Shown here: positions 5,920 through 15,598 of the stretch, in pieces | How the letters are laid out: each line of letters starts with the position of its first letter | How positions within the stretch are numbered: the first letter of the stretch is position 1 | NCBI GenBank assembly: GCA_021323555.1 | Contig: JAJONP010000060.1 | Span: 1-16,952, forward strand | Source: Gammaproteobacteria bacterium | GTDB lineage: Bacteria; Pseudomonadota; Gammaproteobacteria; DSM-16500 | Reading direction: 5' to 3' | DNA length: 16,952 nt | Notes under the pieces: generated by a model | Database searches by the model: none | What the model saw: the letters and a program-made list of their open reading frames with translations, nothing else | What the model was told of the DNA's origin: nothing | Program-made: the position numbers and the translations under genes

Positions 5920-6744
5920 ATGATTACAGATAAACCCTGGCTTTTACAGTGGCTAGACAATCCTGATCAATTCATACAGCAACCCTTAAATCGTTTGTCA
6001 CTCCCTTATCCACTTTATGAAATATTATGGCGTGGCGCATTACCTGAAGCAAACTTCTTGCCCAAAGATGTTATTAGCGATTTTCATTCATCCTATCAAC
6101 GGACTTATATTGAACGCGATATTCGTCTATTGGCTAATGTTTCTGATTTAGCTCAATTCGGACGTTTTGTGCGGCTAGCTGCAGCGTTGACTGCGCAGGA
6201 AATTAATTATACTGAATTAGGCCGTGATATTGACGTCACGCCCCAAACAGCAAAACGTTGGCTCACCACCTTATCTCAAACATTTGAATGGTTCGAAATA
6301 CCTGCCTATTCTAATAACTGTATTAAACGTATAAGTGGAAAGCCAAAAGGTTATTTTGCAGATACTGGCCAAGTTTGCTATTCCCAAATGATTTCAAGTC
6401 CTGAAGCTATTGCAGCCCATCCATTATGGGGAGCCTTGTTTGAGAATGCCGTTGTTTGTGAGTTACGCAAGCAGGCAAATTTAATTGCTGTACCGCCGCG
6501 ATTTTATCATTGGCGCTTGCATAGTGGAGCTGAAGTTGACTTAATACTCGAACGCGATGGTAAATTTTATCCTATCGAAATTAAGGCAAAAAGCAAAATC
6601 ATATCGAACGATGCAAAAAATATCGCTGTATTTCGCAAGCTTTATCCTCATTTGAATATACAAAAAGGTTTGATTATTGCACCGAGTGAAATAAGGTATC
6701 CCGTTACTGAAAATGACTGGGTTATGCCGTGGGATTGTTCATAA
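5920..6744 (+). pseudogene. 5'-truncated DUF4143 (AAA_14) ATPase relic
   Basis: The 274-residue reading frame matches only the second half of the AAA_14/DUF4143 family as I remember it. It has the winged-helix middle (TAQEINYTELGRDIDVTPQT, about residues 91-110) and the C-terminal PD-(D/E)XK-like part GAEVDLILERDG...YPIEIKAKS (about 205-228). Full-length relatives have about 120-150 more residues at the N-terminus with a P-loop (GPRQVGKT type). Nothing like that exists upstream: the frame is closed by TAA at 5896 and the exporter operon lies just before it. The ATG at 5920 has AGGA touching it, too close for a useful ribosome site. It is therefore most likely a dead remnant, although the remaining frame is uninterrupted. 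Its 3' end overlaps the convergent PH-domain gene by 6 bp. Confidence 0.75.
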
Positions 6745-9001: not shown

Positions 9002-9848
9002 GCCTTATATTTTTTTGATGCGCTTGGATAAGCCTATCGGAATCTTTTTATTAGTATGGCCAACCTTGTGGGCATTATGGCTGGCAGGTGCTGGTAAACC
9101 CCCTTTTCAGATTGTGTTGATCTTTATTTTAGGAGTTATCTTAATGCGTTCCGCAGGCTGTGTAGTGAATGATATAGTTGATCAACGAGTTGATGGATAT
9201 GTCGCTCGTACGCATCAGCGACCTTTAGTGATAGGCTCTGTTTCAACGCAAGCCGCAATGATTTTGTTTTTGAGTCTCATGCTATGCGCTTTTTCTTTAG
9301 TTTTATTATTGAATAAATTAACTCTCTGTTTAGCGTTTGTCGGGGCAATACTTGCTATTATCTATCCTTTTTTAAAACGTTTTACGCATTTACCTCAAGT
9401 AGGTTTAGGATTTGCTTTTTCATGGGGGGTACCTATGGCTTTTGCTGCCGTCACAAACTCAGTGCCTGTCTTTTCTTGGGTCATTTTTTTTGCGGCAGTG
9501 ATATGGTCTGTTATATACGACACTTTATATGCCATGGTGGATCGCGAAGATGATAGAAAAATCGGAATTAAATCAACCGCTATCTTGTTTGGTAAATCAG
9601 ACAAATGGATAACGGGTTTATTGCAAATGATCTTTCTCGTATTACTCTCATTCATTGGATTTTTTTATCAATTAAATAAACTGTATTATTTAGGTATAAT
9701 AAGCGCTGCAATTTTATTTATTTATCAGCAAGCACTTATTCGAGATAGATATCCTGACAATTGTTTTAAAGCTTTTTTAAATAATCATTGGGTCGGCTGT
9801 GTTATTTATATAGGAATTGTATTGGGTTATGTTAATTGTTGCAGATGA
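8988..9848 (+). CDS. ubiA: 4-hydroxybenzoate polyprenyltransferase
   Basis: Integral membrane enzyme attaching the polyprenyl chain to 4-hydroxybenzoate from UbiC. Both Asp-rich magnesium/diphosphate motifs are present: NDIVDQRVD (61-69), followed by ARTHQRPL, and YDTLYAMVDREDD (177-189), followed by GIKSTAILFG. Eight or nine hydrophobic spans are spread along 286 residues, normal for UbiA. The opening MRLDKPIGIFLLVWPTLWALW is also typical. It overlaps ubiC by 14 bp and the pdxB gene by 20 bp, so an operon ubiC-ubiA-pdxB is likely. Confidence 0.96.
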   Translation: MKKLKPYIFLMRLDKPIGIFLLVWPTLWALWLAGAGKPPFQIVLIFILGVILMRSAGCVVNDIVDQRVDGYVARTHQRPLVIGSVSTQAAMILFLSLMLCAFSLVLLLNKLTLCLAFVGAILAIIYPFLKRFTHLPQVGLGFAFSWGVPMAFAAVTNSVPVFSWVIFFAAVIWSVIYDTLYAMVDREDDRKIGIKSTAILFGKSDKWITGLLQMIFLVLLSFIGFFYQLNKLYYLGIISAAILFIYQQALIRDRYPDNCFKAFLNNHWVGCVIYIGIVLGYVNCCR

Positions 9849-10839
9849 AGCCATTCCCTGCGTCAACCATTATTTTGGTTTTGATAATGAAATTATTTTA
9901 AAGCCAGGCCGCGCGTTGACGCGTAATGATGTATTGCTTGCGGATATTTTATTGGTACGCTCAGTAACAAAAATTAACCGTGCATTGTTAGAAGATACGC
10001 ATGTCAGATTTGTAGGAAGTACAGTGACTGGCACAGATCATCTTGATATAGATTGGTTAAATAGCGCAGGCATTCAATGGAGTGCAGCGTCCGGCTGTAA
10101 CACTATCGCAGTGGCTGAATATACAGTAGCTGTGATCGCTGCCTTGCAGAAAAAAGGATTATTACTGCAGAAGAATTGCCGCGCAGGTGTAGTTGGAGTA
10201 GGAAGAATCGGAAGTGAAGTTGTTAAAAAGTTAAAAATATTAAATTTTGATATCGTACAGTGTGACCCTATACGCGCTCTTCAAGATAAGAACTTTAACT
10301 CCACCTCTATTGAGGATTTTTCAGACTTAGATATTATTCTATTGTATACGCCTTTAACTAAAGAAGGGCCCTATCCCACGTATCACTTAATTGAAAAATC
10401 ATTCTTAAAACGCCAAAAAAAAGATTGTATCTTATTCAATGCAGGGCGCGGTGCAGCCATCAATTTTTCAGATTTAATGGCATATGGACGGCATTTAATT
10501 TGGTGTTTGGATGTATGGGAAAATGAACCTCATATTAATAAAGAAGTGCTGTTCGCATCGACATTAGCGTCACCGCATATCGCAGGACATTCCGTGCAAA
10601 GTAAATACCGTGGAATTGATATGATTTATAAAGCGGCGATCCAGCGAGGTGTTCTCCCTGATCGTTCAATAGAAAGTTTTAATTTCCCAACAATAGAAAT
10701 TGCTTTGGATAGTAAAAAAGTGGATTGGCGCGATATCGTACTTGCTATTTATAATCCTTTTGAGATTTCTGAGCAGATGAAGCAGGCTAGTTTATTGGAT
10801 TTAGAATCTGCTCGTGTGCTTGATAGAATTTTTAAATAA
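9829..10839 (+). CDS. pdxB: erythronate-4-phosphate dehydrogenase, short C-terminus
   Basis: Oxidises 4-phosphoerythronate with NAD in the DXP-dependent pyridoxal phosphate pathway. The family opening MLIVADEAIPCV is present. The NAD-binding motif GVGRIGSEVV is at 123-132 and the catalytic triad is complete: Arg207 in FNAGRGAAI, Glu233 in DVWENEP and His250 in SPHIAGH. The Glu-His spacing of 17 equals that in E. coli. I chose ATG 9829, as a TTG at 9817 would add four unmatched residues. The protein is 336 residues, about 40 shorter than E. coli PdxB (378): it stops at LDRIFK, where relatives continue through a conserved RKNYPLRREF-like end of the dimerisation domain. The last 70 codons are duplicated downstream at 12790-13024. 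Function is likely but the short end is odd. Confidence 0.9.
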   Translation: MLIVADEAIPCVNHYFGFDNEIILKPGRALTRNDVLLADILLVRSVTKINRALLEDTHVRFVGSTVTGTDHLDIDWLNSAGIQWSAASGCNTIAVAEYTVAVIAALQKKGLLLQKNCRAGVVGVGRIGSEVVKKLKILNFDIVQCDPIRALQDKNFNSTSIEDFSDLDIILLYTPLTKEGPYPTYHLIEKSFLKRQKKDCILFNAGRGAAINFSDLMAYGRHLIWCLDVWENEPHINKEVLFASTLASPHIAGHSVQSKYRGIDMIYKAAIQRGVLPDRSIESFNFPTIEIALDSKKVDWRDIVLAIYNPFEISEQMKQASLLDLESARVLDRIFK

Positions 10840-10858
10840 ATAGTCATCTACTGCTTGC
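10631..10858 (+). repeat. pdxB 3'-end direct repeat, left copy
   Basis: The last part of pdxB plus about 19 bp past its stop matches 12790-13040. I count six substitutions in about 210 aligned bases of coding tail, apart from a 26-bp insertion in the right copy. Beyond the stop the match weakens and ends near 10858. The two copies bracket the first AbiE pair. Confidence 0.9.
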
Positions 10859-10927
10859 TAATCAGTTACAGTAACTCTCAAATGAAAAAAAGGGTGTGTC
10901 AAATTAAAATAATTGCAGAAAGATAGC

Positions 10928-10961
10928 TGTCTATTAGTAAATGTTCACGACCTAATAGGCA
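10928..10961. repeat. inverted repeat upstream of first abiE pair
   Basis: TGTCTATTAG (10928-10937) and CTAATAGGCA (10952-10961) pair at nine of ten positions across 14 nt. A smaller perfect palindrome, AGTTAC-A-GTAACT, lies at 10864-10876. No T run follows either one, so they are not clear terminators. They could be operator sites for the first AbiEi, but the two do not share a sequence. Confidence 0.4.
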
Positions 10962-10995
10962 AAGTCCGTATTTTACCGAAATTTAAAAATCTGAC

Positions 10996-11025
10996 TTGAT
11001 TTCTTATAGCCATATCCATTACACT
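10996..11025 (+). promoter_or_regulatory. possible promoter of first abiE pair
   Basis: TTGATT (10996-11001) and TACACT (11020-11025) are separated by 18 bp, each matching four of six consensus bases. The start codon at 11066 follows 40 bp later. This is a weak call. Confidence 0.3.
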
Positions 11026-11065
11026 ATGCTCATGAAACCACACAATACGTTGCCCATGGTACTTA

Positions 11066-11866
11066 ATGAAACTATCTCAGTACATTAATCAACTCCAACA
11101 AACAGGTAGAAAAAGCTTTAGTAAAGATGAAGCAGTTAAAGCGCTTCACCTGTCCTCTAAGGCTTTTGATATGGCCTTACTAAGGCTGCGGAAAAAGGGT
11201 ACTGTAGTGACCCCTTATAAAAATTTTCATATCATTGTTCCTCCTGAATACCAAGTATTGGGTTGCTTACCTGCCAATCAGCTTATACCTCTTCTTATGG
11301 AACATTTAAAAATTTCTTATTACGTATGCTTATTATCTGCCGCAGAGTTGCATGGTGCTGCTCACCAGCGACCGCAAATTTTTCAAGTGATGACTAATAA
11401 ACGTATGCGACCGATCCACTGCGGGAAAATCACAGTCAATTTTATTTTTAAAAAAGACTTATCCTATATCCCCACCCAGCCTTTTAATGTACCCACAGGC
11501 TATTTGATAACATCAACGCCTGAAGCGACTGCAATGGATTTATTTCTTTATCCTTACCAAGCAGGCGGCATCAATCATATTGCAACTGTCTTATCCGAAT
11601 TAGTTGAAGCCATTGAACCACAAAAGCTGTTAGTATTAGCACACTCTTCTGCCCAAAATGCTTGGGTGCAGCGTTTAGGGTATATTCTGGAAAAAATTGA
11701 TCCTTACGAAACAACACGGAAAGTAGAATGTATTAAGTTTCTGAGAGAGCATGTTCAGGGCATTCATCCTTCTTATGTTTCGCTTATTGCCAGAGGTATA
11801 AAAAGTTTGTCGCGTGATAAAACATGGCGCATTATTGTGAATACAGACATAGACAGTGACATATGA
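11066..11866 (+). CDS. AbiEi-family antitoxin, system 1
   Basis: Predicted antitoxin and autorepressor of a type IV (AbiE) toxin-antitoxin pair. Residues 1-60 form a winged helix-turn-helix (SKDEAVKALHLSSKAFDMAL, then LRKKGTVVTPYKNFHIIVP, as in COG5340 proteins). The middle has the usual AbiEi features YVCLLSAAELHGAAHQRPQIFQ and a segment with TSTPEATAMDLFLYP, placing it in the group that follows the TPEATALDL-like motif. The length of 266 residues is normal. The ATG has no visible ribosome site; no better in-frame start exists, since TGA at 11033 closes the frame. Its last 4 bp overlap the toxin gene (ATGA), a tight coupling typical of such pairs. It lies between two copies of the pdxB 3' end, which suggests acquisition. 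Confidence 0.85.
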   Translation: MKLSQYINQLQQTGRKSFSKDEAVKALHLSSKAFDMALLRLRKKGTVVTPYKNFHIIVPPEYQVLGCLPANQLIPLLMEHLKISYYVCLLSAAELHGAAHQRPQIFQVMTNKRMRPIHCGKITVNFIFKKDLSYIPTQPFNVPTGYLITSTPEATAMDLFLYPYQAGGINHIATVLSELVEAIEPQKLLVLAHSSAQNAWVQRLGYILEKIDPYETTRKVECIKFLREHVQGIHPSYVSLIARGIKSLSRDKTWRIIVNTDIDSDI

Positions 11867-12708
11867 TTCCACAAAGTTTTATTCAAGACTGGAAATATCG
11901 CTATGCTCCTTGGCCGTCATTGACCATGGTGGAGCAGGATCTGATTATTAGCCGTGCATTGGTAGAACTATATCAGCAGCCTACAATTAAAAAAGCCCTT
12001 GTCTTTAGAGGGGGTACTGCATTAAATAAAATTTATATTAACCCGCCATCCCGCTACAGCGAAGATATTGACCTCGTACAGATTAAAGCCGGCCCCATTA
12101 GGGAAATAGTGGATACTATTCGTATAGTATTAGATCCTTGGTTAGGTGAGCCTAAGAGAAAACTGACAGATAGATGTGTAAAATTACTTTATCGTTTTCA
12201 ATCAAGTGAAAATTTACCTGCCAGACTAAAAATAGAAATTAACACAACTGAACATTACCATGTGCTTGAATTAGCGAAAGTTGATTTTTCGGTTGAATCA
12301 GCATGGTTCACTGGAACGACACAAATCCTCACTTATCAATTAAATGAACTCATGGGTTCAAAAATGTGTGCGCTCTATAACCGTCGTAAAGGCAGAGATT
12401 TGTTTGACTTGTGGCTAGTACTTAAAAATAACTTGGTTGACACACAAACTGTTTTAGAGGTTTTTCTAATGCATTGCGAAAAGGTAGGACAAAAAATCAC
12501 ACGAACTTTATTTGAAAGAAACTTATTTGAAAAAAACAAATATGATGATTTCCGTCTGGATATTTTAGGACTACTTGCAAATACGGAACAATGGTCTTTT
12601 ACAGAAGCCTATCAAATGGTAAATGATAGATTAATTTGCCTGTTGCCTGGGGAGAAATGGAAAAAGCCTGCTTGTGAAATTGAAAAGACTGTTGAAAATA
12701 AGCTATGA
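11863..12708 (+). CDS. AbiEii-family nucleotidyltransferase toxin, system 1
   Basis: Predicted toxin of the type IV pair, a DNA polymerase beta-like nucleotidyltransferase. The four motifs described for AbiEii proteins can be seen: motif I FRGGTALNKIY (Gly50-Gly51-Thr52), with the acidic pair in RYSEDIDL (Asp68, Asp70); motif II/III LKIEIN with Glu125; and motif IV KMCALYNRRKGRDLFDLW (Lys167, Arg178, Asp179). The length of 281 residues is normal. All catalytic residues are present, so it looks active. Start and antitoxin stop overlap as ATGA. Related enzymes block growth by modifying tRNA or another substrate; which target applies here cannot be told. Confidence 0.88.
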   Translation: MIPQSFIQDWKYRYAPWPSLTMVEQDLIISRALVELYQQPTIKKALVFRGGTALNKIYINPPSRYSEDIDLVQIKAGPIREIVDTIRIVLDPWLGEPKRKLTDRCVKLLYRFQSSENLPARLKIEINTTEHYHVLELAKVDFSVESAWFTGTTQILTYQLNELMGSKMCALYNRRKGRDLFDLWLVLKNNLVDTQTVLEVFLMHCEKVGQKITRTLFERNLFEKNKYDDFRLDILGLLANTEQWSFTEAYQMVNDRLICLLPGEKWKKPACEIEKTVENKL

Positions 12709-12789
12709 ATTAAAAAAACAGAGCCAGGCTTGCATGGTTGCATTAGATGTTATGTTGAAAATACAATTACGCAAACCTGACCCCTTTTG
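12709..12789. mobile_element. possible transposase-element end fragment
   Basis: Eighty-one bases without a gene between the toxin stop and the pdxB fragment. The end reads ACGCAAACCTGACCCC followed by TTTT, a string that I recall at the edges of REP-associated tyrosine transposase elements in proteobacteria. No transposase remains. The pdxB-derived repeat begins directly after it at 12790. The call rests on recall and needs a search. Confidence 0.35.
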
Positions 12790-13024
12790 AAGCGGCGGTC
12801 CAGAGAGGTGTTCTCCCTGATCGTTCAATAGAAAGTTTTAATTTCCCCACAATAGAAATTGCTTTGGATAGTAAAAAAGTGGATTGGCGCGATATCGTAC
12901 TTGCTATTTATAATCCTTTTGAGATTTCTGAGCAGATGAAGCAGGCTAGTTTAAATTTGTCACTCTAAAAAACAGTTTATTGGATCCAGAATCTGCTCGT
13001 GTGCTTGATAGAATTTTTGAATAA
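12790..13024 (+). pseudogene. pdxB: duplicated pdxB 3' end, dead fragment (right copy)
   Basis: A copy of the last 70 codons of pdxB, about 97% identical at base level to 10631-10839. It has no start, and its upstream border is unrelated DNA. A 26-bp insertion at 12950-12975, bounded by TTTA on both sides, brings an early TAA at 12966 and shifts the frame; after it the ancestral tail resumes and reaches a TAA at 13022-13024. The first base differences (A to G near 12798 and C to A near 12804) and the others are scattered. Similarity continues about 16 bp past the stop into the operator-like repeat of the next abiE pair. It marks the right border of the segment carrying system 1. Confidence 0.9.
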
Positions 13025-13050
13025 AACTGTCATTTATTGACAGTTTTATT
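13020..13050. promoter_or_regulatory. AbiEi operator-like inverted repeat 1
   Basis: AATAAAACTGTCA (13020-13032) and TGACAGTTTTATT (13038-13050) are perfect 13-bp arms around 5 nt. It overlaps the -35 box TTGACA at 13037-13042 and the stop of the dead pdxB tail. The core ACTGTCA-5-TGACAGT recurs at 13097-13115. Confidence 0.8.
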
Positions 13051-13066
13051 CAAAAACATAGATAAA
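13037..13066 (+). promoter_or_regulatory. promoter of second abiE pair
   Basis: TTGACA (13037-13042, perfect consensus) and GATAAA (13061-13066, four of six) are 18 bp apart. Transcription would start near 13073. The -35 box lies inside inverted repeat 1, and inverted repeat 2 would lie in the leader, so a bound repressor at either site should block expression. Confidence 0.6.
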
Positions 13067-13096
13067 ATCAATAAAATATGCTATTATTCGATCGAA

Positions 13097-13115
13097 ACTG
13101 TCATTATTTGACAGT
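13097..13115. promoter_or_regulatory. AbiEi operator-like inverted repeat 2
   Basis: ACTGTCA (13097-13103) and TGACAGT (13109-13115) pair perfectly around 5 nt, with the same core and spacing as repeat 1. Centres are 71 bp apart. It ends 12 bp before the abiEi start codon, covering the place where a ribosome site would be. Confidence 0.8.
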
Positions 13116-13127
13116 ATTGAGCAAATT

Positions 13128-13772
13128 ATGAAATACCCATTAGAACCTAAATTAATGACTTATCCACGAGCTTATCTGACGGATAGTGAAATGACGTTCT
13201 TACTCAAGGGAAGCCAGGATAGCCGGTATAGTAAAGTAAAACGATGGTTAGCATCGGGAAAATTATTGCATATTCGCCGTGGATTATATTATTTAACAGA
13301 ACAATCAGGACATCTTACCAAACCGCATCCATTTGAATTGGCACACTTCATTTATGCGCCTTCTTATATTAGTTTTGAGTCAGCGCTGAGTTATCATGGA
13401 TTCATCCCCGAAGCAGTCTATTCTATCACCTGTGCTTGTACTAAACGAAATAAAGCATTCGAGACTCCTTTAGGTAAATTTAATTATTTAAAATTACCCG
13501 TGAAAAATTTTTATATTGCCGTGGAGCTCATGACTGAAGGCAGTTATCATTTTTTTATGGCCAAGCCTTGGAAAGCCATCTGCGATTATATTGTTTGTTA
13601 TAAAAAAGAATGGCGTTCGATTGATCCGTTAATTAAAAGCTTGCGTATTCAGTGGGAAGATTTTCCAGGGATAACCTATGAAGAAATTGAACTGTTAGAT
13701 GAATATTATCATCATAAACGCATGACGCGCTTTCTTAAAAGTATTAAACAAGGAGATAAATGTGAGCGTTGA
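13128..13772 (+). CDS. AbiEi-family antitoxin, system 2
   Basis: Predicted antitoxin and autorepressor of a second, different AbiE pair. At 214 residues it belongs to a shorter AbiEi group than the first one. The N-terminal winged helix is at about residues 15-60 (LTDSEMTFLLKGSQDSRYSK then LASGKLLHIRRGLYYL). After it comes ELAHFIYAPSYISFESALSY, the segment that defines such antitoxins (compare YVCLLSAAELHG in system 1), and a C-terminal region with a Trp- and Tyr-rich end. Two identical-core inverted repeats lie just upstream, which fits negative autoregulation of this family by binding two inverted repeats, known for Streptococcus AbiEi. ATG 13128 has no strong ribosome site. It overlaps the toxin gene by 11 bp. 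Confidence 0.85.
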   Translation: MKYPLEPKLMTYPRAYLTDSEMTFLLKGSQDSRYSKVKRWLASGKLLHIRRGLYYLTEQSGHLTKPHPFELAHFIYAPSYISFESALSYHGFIPEAVYSITCACTKRNKAFETPLGKFNYLKLPVKNFYIAVELMTEGSYHFFMAKPWKAICDYIVCYKKEWRSIDPLIKSLRIQWEDFPGITYEEIELLDEYYHHKRMTRFLKSIKQGDKCER

Positions 13773-14616
13773 GATTGTTCAAACAAAATTATTATCCTAT
13801 CAATGCCACACAGTGCTTGAGCAAGAAAACGCACTTAAAGAAATTCTTCAAGAGATTGCTTTATTAGCGCTTTCACGTGCTGGATTTTTTCAGGTTGCTG
13901 CTTTTCAAGGGGGAACTTGTTTAAGAATTTTGTATGGGTTAGAACGATTTTCTGAAGATTTAGATTTTACATTAAAAAACCCGGACAAAAATTTTATCTG
14001 GAAAAAATATATTGCTTCTATGCAAGAGGAGTTTAGTGCGTATGGATTTTCTTTGGAAACAAAAGATAGAGAGAAGTTAGATAATACTATTAAAATCGCT
14101 TTTTTAAAAGCAGATTCAGATGGCGGTCTTTTAATTATCAAGGATAATAGAACAAATAAACCTAAATTAAGAATTAAGCTAGAGATAGATTCTAATCCTC
14201 CTGAGGGTGCAACCTACGAATTAAAATTTCTGGATTTTCCTTTGCCTTATAGTATTAACGTGCAGGATTTATCAAGCCTATTTGCAGGGAAATGCCATGC
14301 TTTACTTTGTAGGGAGTACACAAAAGGAAGAGATTGGTATGATTTTATCTGGTATATTTCAAGAAAAGTACCTATTAATTTTATTTTTCTGAATAATGCT
14401 ATTTCACAAGCAGGCCCTTGGAAAGAAAAAAATATTTCAATAACTCCGCATTGGTTTTATCAGCAACTTAAAATAAAAATCATGGCTATGAATTGGGATG
14501 AGGTCAAACAAGATGTCGTACATTTTCTAAGGCCAAAAGAACGGGCAACCCTTGATCTTTGGTCTAAAGAATTTTTTCTCTCGCGTTTAGAAAAACTAAT
14601 AGATTATATTAATTAG
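13762..14616 (+). CDS. AbiEii-family nucleotidyltransferase toxin, system 2
   Basis: Predicted nucleotidyltransferase toxin of the second pair. Motif I is FQGGTCLRILYG (Gly50-Gly51-Thr52), with RFSEDLDF after it (Asp66, Asp68). The third acid is Glu141 in LRIKLEID, and motif IV reads FAGKCHALLCREYTKGRDWYD (Lys177, Lys188, Arg190, Asp191). All expected active-site positions are filled. The length of 284 residues is normal. It begins with GTG at 13762, with AGGAG 6 nt upstream, so it should be translated well, and overlaps the antitoxin by 11 bp. Outside the motifs it shares little with the system 1 toxin, so the pairs are separate acquisitions rather than duplicates. The next gene is convergent and 13 bp away. 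Confidence 0.88.
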   Translation: MSVEIVQTKLLSYQCHTVLEQENALKEILQEIALLALSRAGFFQVAAFQGGTCLRILYGLERFSEDLDFTLKNPDKNFIWKKYIASMQEEFSAYGFSLETKDREKLDNTIKIAFLKADSDGGLLIIKDNRTNKPKLRIKLEIDSNPPEGATYELKFLDFPLPYSINVQDLSSLFAGKCHALLCREYTKGRDWYDFIWYISRKVPINFIFLNNAISQAGPWKEKNISITPHWFYQQLKIKIMAMNWDEVKQDVVHFLRPKERATLDLWSKEFFLSRLEKLIDYIN

Positions 14617-14629
14617 AGTGCATTTAAAA

Positions 14630-15598
14630 TCACACAGTCCACTCCACGTCTGACTGCTTCAAAGCTACTATGTCCTCTTCTTTCAAGCCTGTGACATCGG
14701 CAATCACACTGACTGCTATGTTTTTTGAAAGCATACGAAGGGCTACTTTTTCTACGCCTTCTTTTATCCCTTCGGCTTTGCCTTGTTCTACACCTTCTTT
14801 TATCCCTTCGGCTTTGCCTTTCTCTATACCTTTTTCCATCGCTAATGCCTGCGCAGTCGCAAGTTCTATTTCCCGGGTTTGGATCAGGCTCGCCTCTAAA
14901 CTCAAACTTTCCATGTAACGCTCATAGGCACGTCTGTCTTGTTCAGATAACTGCAACACATCCATCCGTTTTTTGGCTAACTTAATGCCTTTAGCTTTAA
15001 AGCCTTCTTGAATCGCTTCATTTTTCAGTAAATAAACCCATTCATCAAAGCCATTTTGGATGATATTTTTAAAACGCTTGAGTTGGATCAGGTAATACGT
15101 GGGATAGATATCTTGCGGGCGATGGTAATCAAAATTTAAGTACGATTTTTTATCGCTCTCGCTAAAAGCTAAGCTTTCTTGGGTACGCATTCCCTTAAAC
15201 TCTGTTTCACCTTTGTATAAATAGTCAGTTCCTTGTCCTAGGTTAAATAATAAAATACTCACTGAAATGACTTTGGGGATGGCACTATAGGGTTGGCCTT
15301 TTTCAATATACTCGGTCACGACTTTAGAAGTACCGAATAAAATGCGATGCCAATAATCCCATTCACTGGCCGTTTGGACTTCGATAATGATTTTTTGCTT
15401 TTTTTGAGTTTCAACAAGAAGATCGACTCGATTGAATTTATCAGTGTCTTGCTCGCTATTCGATTCACTTTCGAGTAAAGAATCAATATGAATCGGCTCT
15501 TGCAACAATTCCGATAAAAACCCCTCCAAAATAACAAAATTCGCTTTTTGACGTAAGATATTTTTAATCGCCCAGTCAAAACGAACCAGCTTAGACAT
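14630..15598 (-). CDS. Rpn / PDDEXK_2 family nuclease-like protein
   Basis: A 322-residue protein of the Rpn (recombination-promoting nuclease, PDDEXK_2) family. The N-terminus FDWAIKNILRQKANFVILEG is the usual opening, and the active-site pattern is visible as Asp59 in NRVDLLVE and Glu73-Val-Gln75 in IIIEVQT. The middle part RILFGTSKVVTEYIEKGQPY is also typical. The C-terminal quarter is a charged helix with near-identical 12-residue repeats (GKAEGIKEGVE) and a final HTH-like segment (SVIADVTGLKEEDI). Members promote RecA-independent recombination, and some form toxin-antitoxin systems with a short internal product. ATG 15598 has AGAGG about 11 nt upstream on the minus strand. It sits next to an IS relic and two AbiE pairs. 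Confidence 0.88.
   Translation of the reverse strand: MSKLVRFDWAIKNILRQKANFVILEGFLSELLQEPIHIDSLLESESNSEQDTDKFNRVDLLVETQKKQKIIIEVQTASEWDYWHRILFGTSKVVTEYIEKGQPYSAIPKVISVSILLFNLGQGTDYLYKGETEFKGMRTQESLAFSESDKKSYLNFDYHRPQDIYPTYYLIQLKRFKNIIQNGFDEWVYLLKNEAIQEGFKAKGIKLAKKRMDVLQLSEQDRRAYERYMESLSLEASLIQTREIELATAQALAMEKGIEKGKAEGIKEGVEQGKAEGIKEGVEKVALRMLSKNIAVSVIADVTGLKEEDIVALKQSDVEWTV
14750..14821. repeat. 36-bp tandem repeat, two units, inside the Rpn gene
   Basis: Units 14750-14785 and 14786-14821 differ at two of 36 bases. Each encodes 12 residues of the charged C-terminal helix, and the unit length keeps the frame. Such repeats can expand or contract, so the tail length may vary among strains. Confidence 0.9.

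Follow-up and report, generated by a model that had tools for sequence, protein, structure and literature searches.

An AbiE toxin-antitoxin cassette between two copies of the pdxB 3' end in a gammaproteobacterial contig

Insertion with long target duplication was reportedly described for restriction-modification genes by Nobusato et al. in 2000 and by Furuta et al. in 2010. The portions of three papers on which we draw describe restriction-modification units that are inserted without a known mobile element and bracketed by host direct repeats "in the order of 100 bp" (PMC3874152, PMC1643837, PMC3031569). In Escherichia coli K-12, the section of PMC11148124 used here gives e14 in icd (icdC) a 165-bp tail with 12 nucleotide changes and two amino-acid replacements, a pattern that points to a tail kept under selection while it was part of the element. 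A cis-mobilizable element (CIME) keeps attL and attR and has lost its integration and transfer genes (PMC5704250, in the excerpt used). AbiE promoters carry inverted repeats that are bound by AbiEi (PMC7319586, in part), and AbiE has already been published on an integrative element (for example PMC11062541, likewise in part); a non-exhaustive literature search found no publication on AbiE cassettes bracketed by core-gene tails. Here we describe such an arrangement in a contig of 16,952 bp (JAJONP010000060.1 of assembly GCA_021323555.1, forward strand; the whole of it is called the window) from a gammaproteobacterium of the order DSM-16500, in which an AbiE operon, system 1, lies between two copies of the 3' end of a gene called pdxB after the names of its homologues. 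The features concerned are the following.

9829..10839, + strand: pdxB (erythronate-4-phosphate dehydrogenase), live copy, 336 amino acids (aa); Pfam 2-Hacid_dh domains, and alignment with P0001 (the nearest PdxB protein) and 14 others
10631..10840, + strand: tail copy 1 (live), the final 210 bp of pdxB, ending one base after the stop; repeat search and base-by-base alignment
10841..12789, + strand: probable inserted cassette of 1949 bp, AbiE system 1 with its flanks; the stretch that separates the two tail copies
11066..11866, + strand: AbiEi-1, antitoxin, 266 aa; Pfam AbiEi_1 2.8e-41, PADLOC AbiEi 1.2e-88
11863..12708, + strand: AbiEii-1, nucleotidyltransferase toxin, 281 aa; Pfam AbiEii 9.5e-35, PADLOC 1.7e-96
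12790..13025, + strand: tail copy 2 (dead), with 26 bp more of what appears to be the ancestral gene; repeat search and alignment
12948..12973, + strand: the 26 bp unique to copy 2, with AGTTTA at both ends and a placement ambiguous by 6 bases (AGTTTA repeats)

A first-pass annotation of this DNA had the last 210 bp of pdxB occurring twice around AbiE system 1, and this duplication is confirmed. The repeat search found two direct-repeat blocks (spacing 2159 and then 2185, identity 97% and 94%), and base-by-base alignment of the copies gives six substitutions in 210 positions, at 10639, 10645, 10689, 10801, 10802 and 10834, that is 97.1% identity, together with a single 26-base gap. The repeat ends one base beyond the pdxB stop codon (10837-10839); the annotation had carried the tails on to 10858 and 13040, where the agreement is near chance (the fraction scoring equally well is 0.041 for random window pairs and 0.076 for shuffles). 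No third strong copy of the tail was found in the window, behind AbiE-2 or elsewhere, by repeat search, by blastn with the tail or by tblastn with the P0001 tail, which otherwise gave weak matches (best E 0.003 over 21 bases). Silent changes make up two of the six differences, and random changes would give 21%; since this is near the random expectation, no long separate history under selection shows. P0001 is 81% identical to the window's PdxB in the search and 86% in the alignment; its tail protein is 75-77% identical to copy 2, and the two copies are 97% identical to each other in DNA.

The cassette consists of AbiEi-1 and AbiEii-1, preceded by 225 bp and followed by 81 bp, these two genes being the open reading frames (ORFs) of at least 80 aa within the insert. 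By gene content both system 1 and the second AbiE operon of the window, system 2, are confirmed as AbiE type IV toxin-antitoxin systems: each has adjacent AbiEi and AbiEii genes with overlapping frames (four of four genes called by PADLOC, three of four by Pfam), and the systems differ from each other, their best PADLOC models not being alike. The annotation's statement that no integrase is present agrees with our Pfam scan, which found none in the 17 of the 25 window ORFs of at least 80 aa that were scanned. There is likewise no transposase among the insert's ORFs of at least 80 aa, and the duplication is 210 bp, in place of the short target duplication of a classical transposon. The repeat, the absence from the relatives read (below) and the lack of other genes between the copies support an insertion event, and we consider it likely that an AbiE-only cassette of about 1.95 kb was inserted directly behind the pdxB stop with the gene tail duplicated.

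The 26 bp had been annotated as an insertion; that reading, and that of a small mobile element, are ruled out by their match to ancestral pdxB codons. Together with the bases behind them they encode FKFVTLKNS, directly ahead of the shared end, and P0001 carries these residues at the corresponding position. Because copy 2 reads here exactly as P0001 does, the 26 bp, judged by their codons, are ancestral pdxB sequence retained in copy 2 and lost from copy 1, very likely by slippage between two AGTTTA hexamers. An older loss is common to both copies. The live PdxB has 336 aa and P0001 has 366, and alignment with 15 relatives places the 30 missing residues near the C-terminus, with an FD-x-x-R motif among them that is present in all 30 printed C-termini of the relatives' pdxB genes; about 64 bp, the stretch to which this motif belongs, are missing from both copies (90 bp by the P0001 length, minus 26). 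Because both copies lack a stretch that P0001 and the relatives keep, the tail was probably duplicated within this bacterium's own lineage, after the older deletion. The shared missing stretch is what is expected if both repeats stem from the same resident target; exchange between copies or between strains could also give it. The description of copy 1 as in frame holds in that it still codes, and needs the qualification that its product is itself 30 residues short of P0001.

As a separate observation, the absence from the live enzyme of 30 residues near the C-terminus, including a motif kept in 30 of 30 relatives, may bear on PdxB function.

Read in the pdxB frame, copy 2 stops early (after ...MKQASLNLSL), so the gene before the 26-bp loss would have ended in a shifted frame, and that loss would have restored the old ending in frame. 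Judged from P0001 alone, copy 2 has kept the older residue twice, V at codon 271 and E at the last codon (codon 271 varies among other relatives), and one codon is apparently changed in both copies. Having lost the 26 bp, the live tail is the more derived copy, the reverse of the well-kept replacement tail that the annotation had supposed.

Insertion predicts loci with a single tail and no system 1, and these are what the relatives show. A PdxB genome scan returned 11 loci, the best 72% identical; PdxB is found in 35 of the 36 genomes of the same order, with some matches weak or partial and the best again 72%. We read 30 relatives' pdxB loci with 114 bp to 11 kb of downstream DNA (less than 2 kb in four of the 30). 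Within the DNA read, a second pdxB tail was seen at none of the 30, and tblastn found AbiE-1, AbiE-2, the Rpn-like gene and glmS at none of them, the relatives being distant (PdxB at most 72% identical). In the set of loci L012-L041, ubiA lies beside pdxB in 30 of 30 and ubiC in 14 of 30. In two genomes, G011 and G022, PdxB is in two pieces that were considered as second tails; the pieces lie at contig ends, and we read each case as one gene split by assembly. Among the loci seen, the AbiE-bearing pdxB-glmS interval thus appears peculiar to this lineage.

We infer the following order of events as the most economical. A deletion of about 64 bp in the pdxB tail would have come first. The AbiE-1 cassette would then have entered behind pdxB, ahead of AbiE-2, with duplication of the last 210 bp, so that copy 1 remained attached to the 5' part of the gene, still coding, and copy 2 became dead DNA; copy 1 would finally have lost 26 bp between the AGTTTA repeats. 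The molecular route is speculative, and our choice of a duplicative insertion, that is, insertion of the cassette with long target duplication ahead of the second AbiE operon, is a tentative one. Duplication within the lineage is favored by the shared older deletion, the high identity, the low silent share and the derived live tail, and the duplicative route also by the lack of an integrase in the 17 proteins scanned, by the position of both edges at palindromes, by the 30 of 30 relatives with a single tail and no AbiE, and by the remnants at locus L132 (below).

We narrowly prefer this route to a site-specific element that carries a tail, a possible account and the less probable of the two. 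AbiE-1, and perhaps AbiE-2 earlier, would have integrated at an att site in the pdxB 3' end, copy 1 being the tail brought in and copy 2 the displaced resident, with a recombinase that acted in trans or has been lost, as in a CIME. In favor of such an element, the repeat stops a single base beyond the stop codon, where the target gene ends, and each AbiE operon adjoins a pdxB tail at almost the same position; it has a precedent in e14, whose 165-bp tail in icd carries 12 differences (PMC11148124, in part), and possible parallels in relatives (L156 at an icmF end, L079 at a tRNA-Ser end, L121 and L111 with an integrase fragment inside; see below). Against it stand the same private stretch missing from both tails, the derived state of the live tail, the lack of an integrase among the proteins scanned (a CIME may have lost one), the lack of a third tail behind AbiE-2, and the share of silent differences, two of six here versus 10 of 12 for e14 when each of its two replacements is counted as one change (Fisher p = 0.11, small numbers). 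A repeat of 210 bp is also long for an att repeat, and we count this against such an element. The annotation's offer of site-specific insertion or duplication thus finds something on each side, the end of the repeat at the stop codon for an element, and the shared derived deletion and the differences that are not mostly silent for duplication.

The DNA at the cassette's edges and beyond its right border holds these features.

12725..12784, no strand assigned: degenerate copy of a palindromic repeat of about 60-75 bp (GGGGTCAGGCTTGCA...TGCAAGCCTGACCCC), its right end 5 bases ahead of the dead tail
13014..13056, no strand assigned: perfect 19-bp inverted repeat across the end of copy 2; repeat search
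13026..13044, no strand assigned: ACTGTCA-N5-TGACAGT, within the 13014..13056 inverted repeat, its first base right after tail copy 2; motif search
13097..13115, no strand assigned: second ACTGTCA-N5-TGACAGT, upstream of AbiEi-2
13128..13772, + strand: AbiEi-2, antitoxin; PADLOC AbiEi 1.7e-51, no Pfam match
13762..14616, + strand: AbiEii-2, toxin; Pfam 2.7e-30, PADLOC 9.9e-102

A palindrome lies at either edge, a perfect hairpin on the gene side and the degenerate repeat on the cassette side. A possible mobile-element end had been annotated beside the dead tail, and the degenerate repeat, whose family is dispersed in relatives, agrees with that suggestion. The family was recognized through the relatives only; against each of four of its members from relatives, the repeat at 12725-12784 beats 500 of 500 shuffles. 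The core pattern TGCAARMCTGACCCC has 20 matches in five of the 36 genomes of the order, and the reversed control has none. One of the 20, the variant TGCAAAACTGACCCC, falls within an open frame of 526 aa and is perhaps unrelated. Four of the 20 form inverted-repeat pairs that span 59-75 bp, and many sit between longer ORFs. By eye only, no transposase was recognized beside the palindromic repeats in relatives, and as single-stranded DNA positions 12700-12800 show no better folding than shuffled sequences do, 174 of 200 of which fold equally well or better. The inverted repeat at 13014..13056 is possibly an AbiE-2 operator, a pdxB terminator or both, and the two ACTGTCA-N5-TGACAGT copies may be AbiE-2 operators, a reading put forward because known AbiE promoters bear AbiEi-bound inverted repeats.

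The palindromic family (GGGGTCAGGCTTGCA...TGCAAGCCTGACCCC) is in itself a dispersed repeat of several genomes of the order, with copies at window positions 12725-12784 and at L210, L217, L219, L223 and L227.

To set the locus beside other AbiE operons, we used AbiEii matches in the order (102 in 31 of the 36 genomes) and scored direct repeats on both sides of the gene within 6 kb. The 73 places scored leave out the 27 weakest matches (<70 bits), G017:C35 and G033:C10:25493. ParE served as one control (the top 43 of 74 matches minus three, namely two at a contig start and G010:C68, which adjoins a stretch already used for AbiE, hence 40) and pdxB as another (27 of the 30 loci; L056, L086 and L087, with 369, 114 and 521 bp downstream, were omitted). 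Repeats bracket AbiEii at 9 of 73 places, ParE at 7 of 40 (Fisher p = 0.57) and pdxB at 1 of 27 (p = 0.28), and random positions in 24 pdxB loci were bracketed in 286 of 4800 draws, all from four loci. These counts show no AbiE-specific enrichment of bracketing repeats, since the ParE controls are bracketed as often. A tight-flank test, which uses a fixed flank length and missed L156 and L081, could be applied to 66 of 75 operons with enough flank (the 73 places and the window's two); five of the 66, window system 1 included, score at least 25, versus 0.07% of random pairs.

The brackets around AbiE are of several kinds. At L156:3297-5167, AbiE has on either side an exact copy of the final 34 bp of an IcmF-domain gene (icmF), with the stop codon in it. 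At L079:2365-4715 AbiE lies between a tRNA-Ser gene and a signal recognition particle (SRP) RNA gene, and a 29-bp repeat that starts in the tRNA's last bases flanks it on each side; the L079 ORF list has no integrase-sized ORF apart from AbiE. L107 has AbiE alone between two 81-bp repeats (88%), and L081 has AbiE with another gene between 183-bp repeats (91%); by eye the repeats of both resemble tRNA 3' parts, and neither ARAGORN nor Rfam calls a tRNA there. At L121 and L111 the repeats enclose a Phage_integrase fragment, and in both the repeat runs to the contig end, in L121 with a stretch of N. L141 was read as bracketed by dispersed repeats. At L132, beside a transfer-messenger RNA (tmRNA) gene, a duplicated stretch with glyoxalase-family and phosphotransferase-like genes (the latter by eye) has left collinear remnants of 42, 20 and 43 bp on the two sides of AbiE; because the remnants are collinear, a duplication fits better there than an att site. 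AbiE-1-type operons at 44-60% identity number 10 in the order (L074-L083), of which L079 and L081 are bracketed, and no pdxB tail was seen at these 10. The ParE brackets are also of several kinds, among them an array of fragments that look tRNA-like by eye (L195), tandem duplications and repeats of other sorts, and we claim no enrichment by kind.

Two arrangements found along the way are recorded here for themselves. At L106:3400-7190 a phage-type integrase gene is followed by two further, decayed versions of its 3' end (177 bp and 89 bp, 79-80%), and AbiE lies between these two, a tail array that much resembles the pdxB case. L195:3556-8294 has three copies of a fragment that by eye resembles a tRNA 3' part (pairs of 163 and 144 bp), two of which flank a ParE toxin gene.

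The tandem duplications in the ParE set include L161, where a 2-kb repeat of 82% identity brackets the ParE locus; this speaks for a further possible history, in which the pdxB tail and an AbiE operon were duplicated in tandem and one AbiE copy was then replaced by the other system or deleted. The single novel junction (12789/12790) is as such a duplication would leave it. Because the two AbiE systems are not alike, it would also need another event precisely where the tail ends, and we regard this history as improbable. A broader proposal, that AbiE operons of the order move as bare, integrase-less two-gene cassettes which attach to gene 3' ends and copy or carry the target's tail so that the gene survives, with two of them stacked at pdxB and each joined to a tail at the stop, is unlikely. 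An error of assembly, or a chimera joining two loci, is the least probable account by far, as the copies differ by six substitutions and 26 bp, and so are not one sequence read twice, and the AbiEii-1 protein cluster P0121 (100% identical) is on two contigs, the longest of 46,395 bp.

Several observations weigh against the duplicative insertion that we tentatively prefer. The repeat reaches a single base beyond the stop, and the possible AbiE-2 operator begins immediately after it (13026); nothing in a duplication would make it halt at the stop codon, so this border tells against it. Bracketing is no commoner around AbiE (9/73) than around ParE (7/40), att-like repeats occur at a tRNA end (L079) and at a coding-sequence end (L156), and two bracketed islands (L111, L121) hold an integrase fragment. 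Two AbiE operons are stacked behind pdxB tails. Neither a donor locus nor an empty site in a close strain was seen, the nearest genome having a PdxB of 72% identity.

Apart from cluster P0121, AbiEii-1 has relatives in P0122 (85% identity) and P0123 (80%). Plasmid and phage collections gave no blastn match for positions 10600-13120; in IMG/VR no AbiEii-1 relative was confirmed and an exact 31-base piece of the tail was absent. An 18-base motif of the cassette end matched six viral contigs, whose flanks are alike among themselves and by eye have nothing beyond the motif in common with the window, and we took these matches as chance.

The genes of the window, from Pfam, are ddl, an efflux operon, a DUF4143 gene, a PH-domain gene, a rubredoxin-reductase-like gene, ubiC, ubiA, pdxB, the two AbiE operons, a PDDEXK_2 (Rpn-like) gene and glmS; the names ddl, efflux operon, ubiC, ubiA, glmS and rubredoxin-reductase-like gene are presumed by us, Pfam giving domains only. 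One gene beyond the bracket deserves its own line.

14630..15598: PDDEXK_2 (Rpn-like) gene, from Pfam, where the family is described as a nuclease family transposase

Within it, two tandem 36-bp repeats (14746-14817) encode KAEGIKEGVE repeats. The DUF4143 protein (5920-6744, 274 aa) has no ATPase part by Pfam and is possibly the product of a truncated gene, and a 27-nucleotide inverted repeat, 93% complementary, lies at positions 1-94, ahead of ddl.

Toxin-antitoxin and defence genes are widespread, often without a visible vehicle. The scar at pdxB, with steps that can be put in order (deletion, duplication with insertion, private deletion), would represent one way for such a unit to settle next to a core gene that survives the event. 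A route known from restriction-modification genes would thereby be extended to AbiE, and the scar bears on whether bare toxin-antitoxin operons are mobile by themselves.

Set beside the systems with which we began, the locus is partly alike and partly different in each case. With the long target duplications of restriction-modification units, as the consulted portions of those papers give them, it shares a small defence or addiction unit between long direct repeats of the target, here of 210 bp and 97%; it differs in that the cargo is an AbiE type IV toxin-antitoxin operon and the target the 3' end of a core gene, with the empty site judged from distant relatives only. The likeness to e14, again from the part of its source used, is a core-gene 3' end duplicated beyond the insert while the upstream gene stays in frame, whereas here two of six differences are silent, a private stretch is missing from both tails, the insert is about 1.95 kb (e14 is a prophage) and no integrase was found. 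The locus resembles a CIME, in the excerpted description, in its gene-end repeats around integrase-less cargo and in the possible accretion of two cassettes at one gene end; unlike one, it has a 210-bp repeat with a shared private deletion, and neither an att core nor a related intact element was recognized. Finally, the two-gene AbiEi/AbiEii operon and the inverted repeats ahead of AbiE-2 are as in the AbiE systems and promoters described (PMC7319586, in part), although ACTGTCA-N5-TGACAGT, a putative operator here, is shorter than the 23-bp repeats given there for S. agalactiae.

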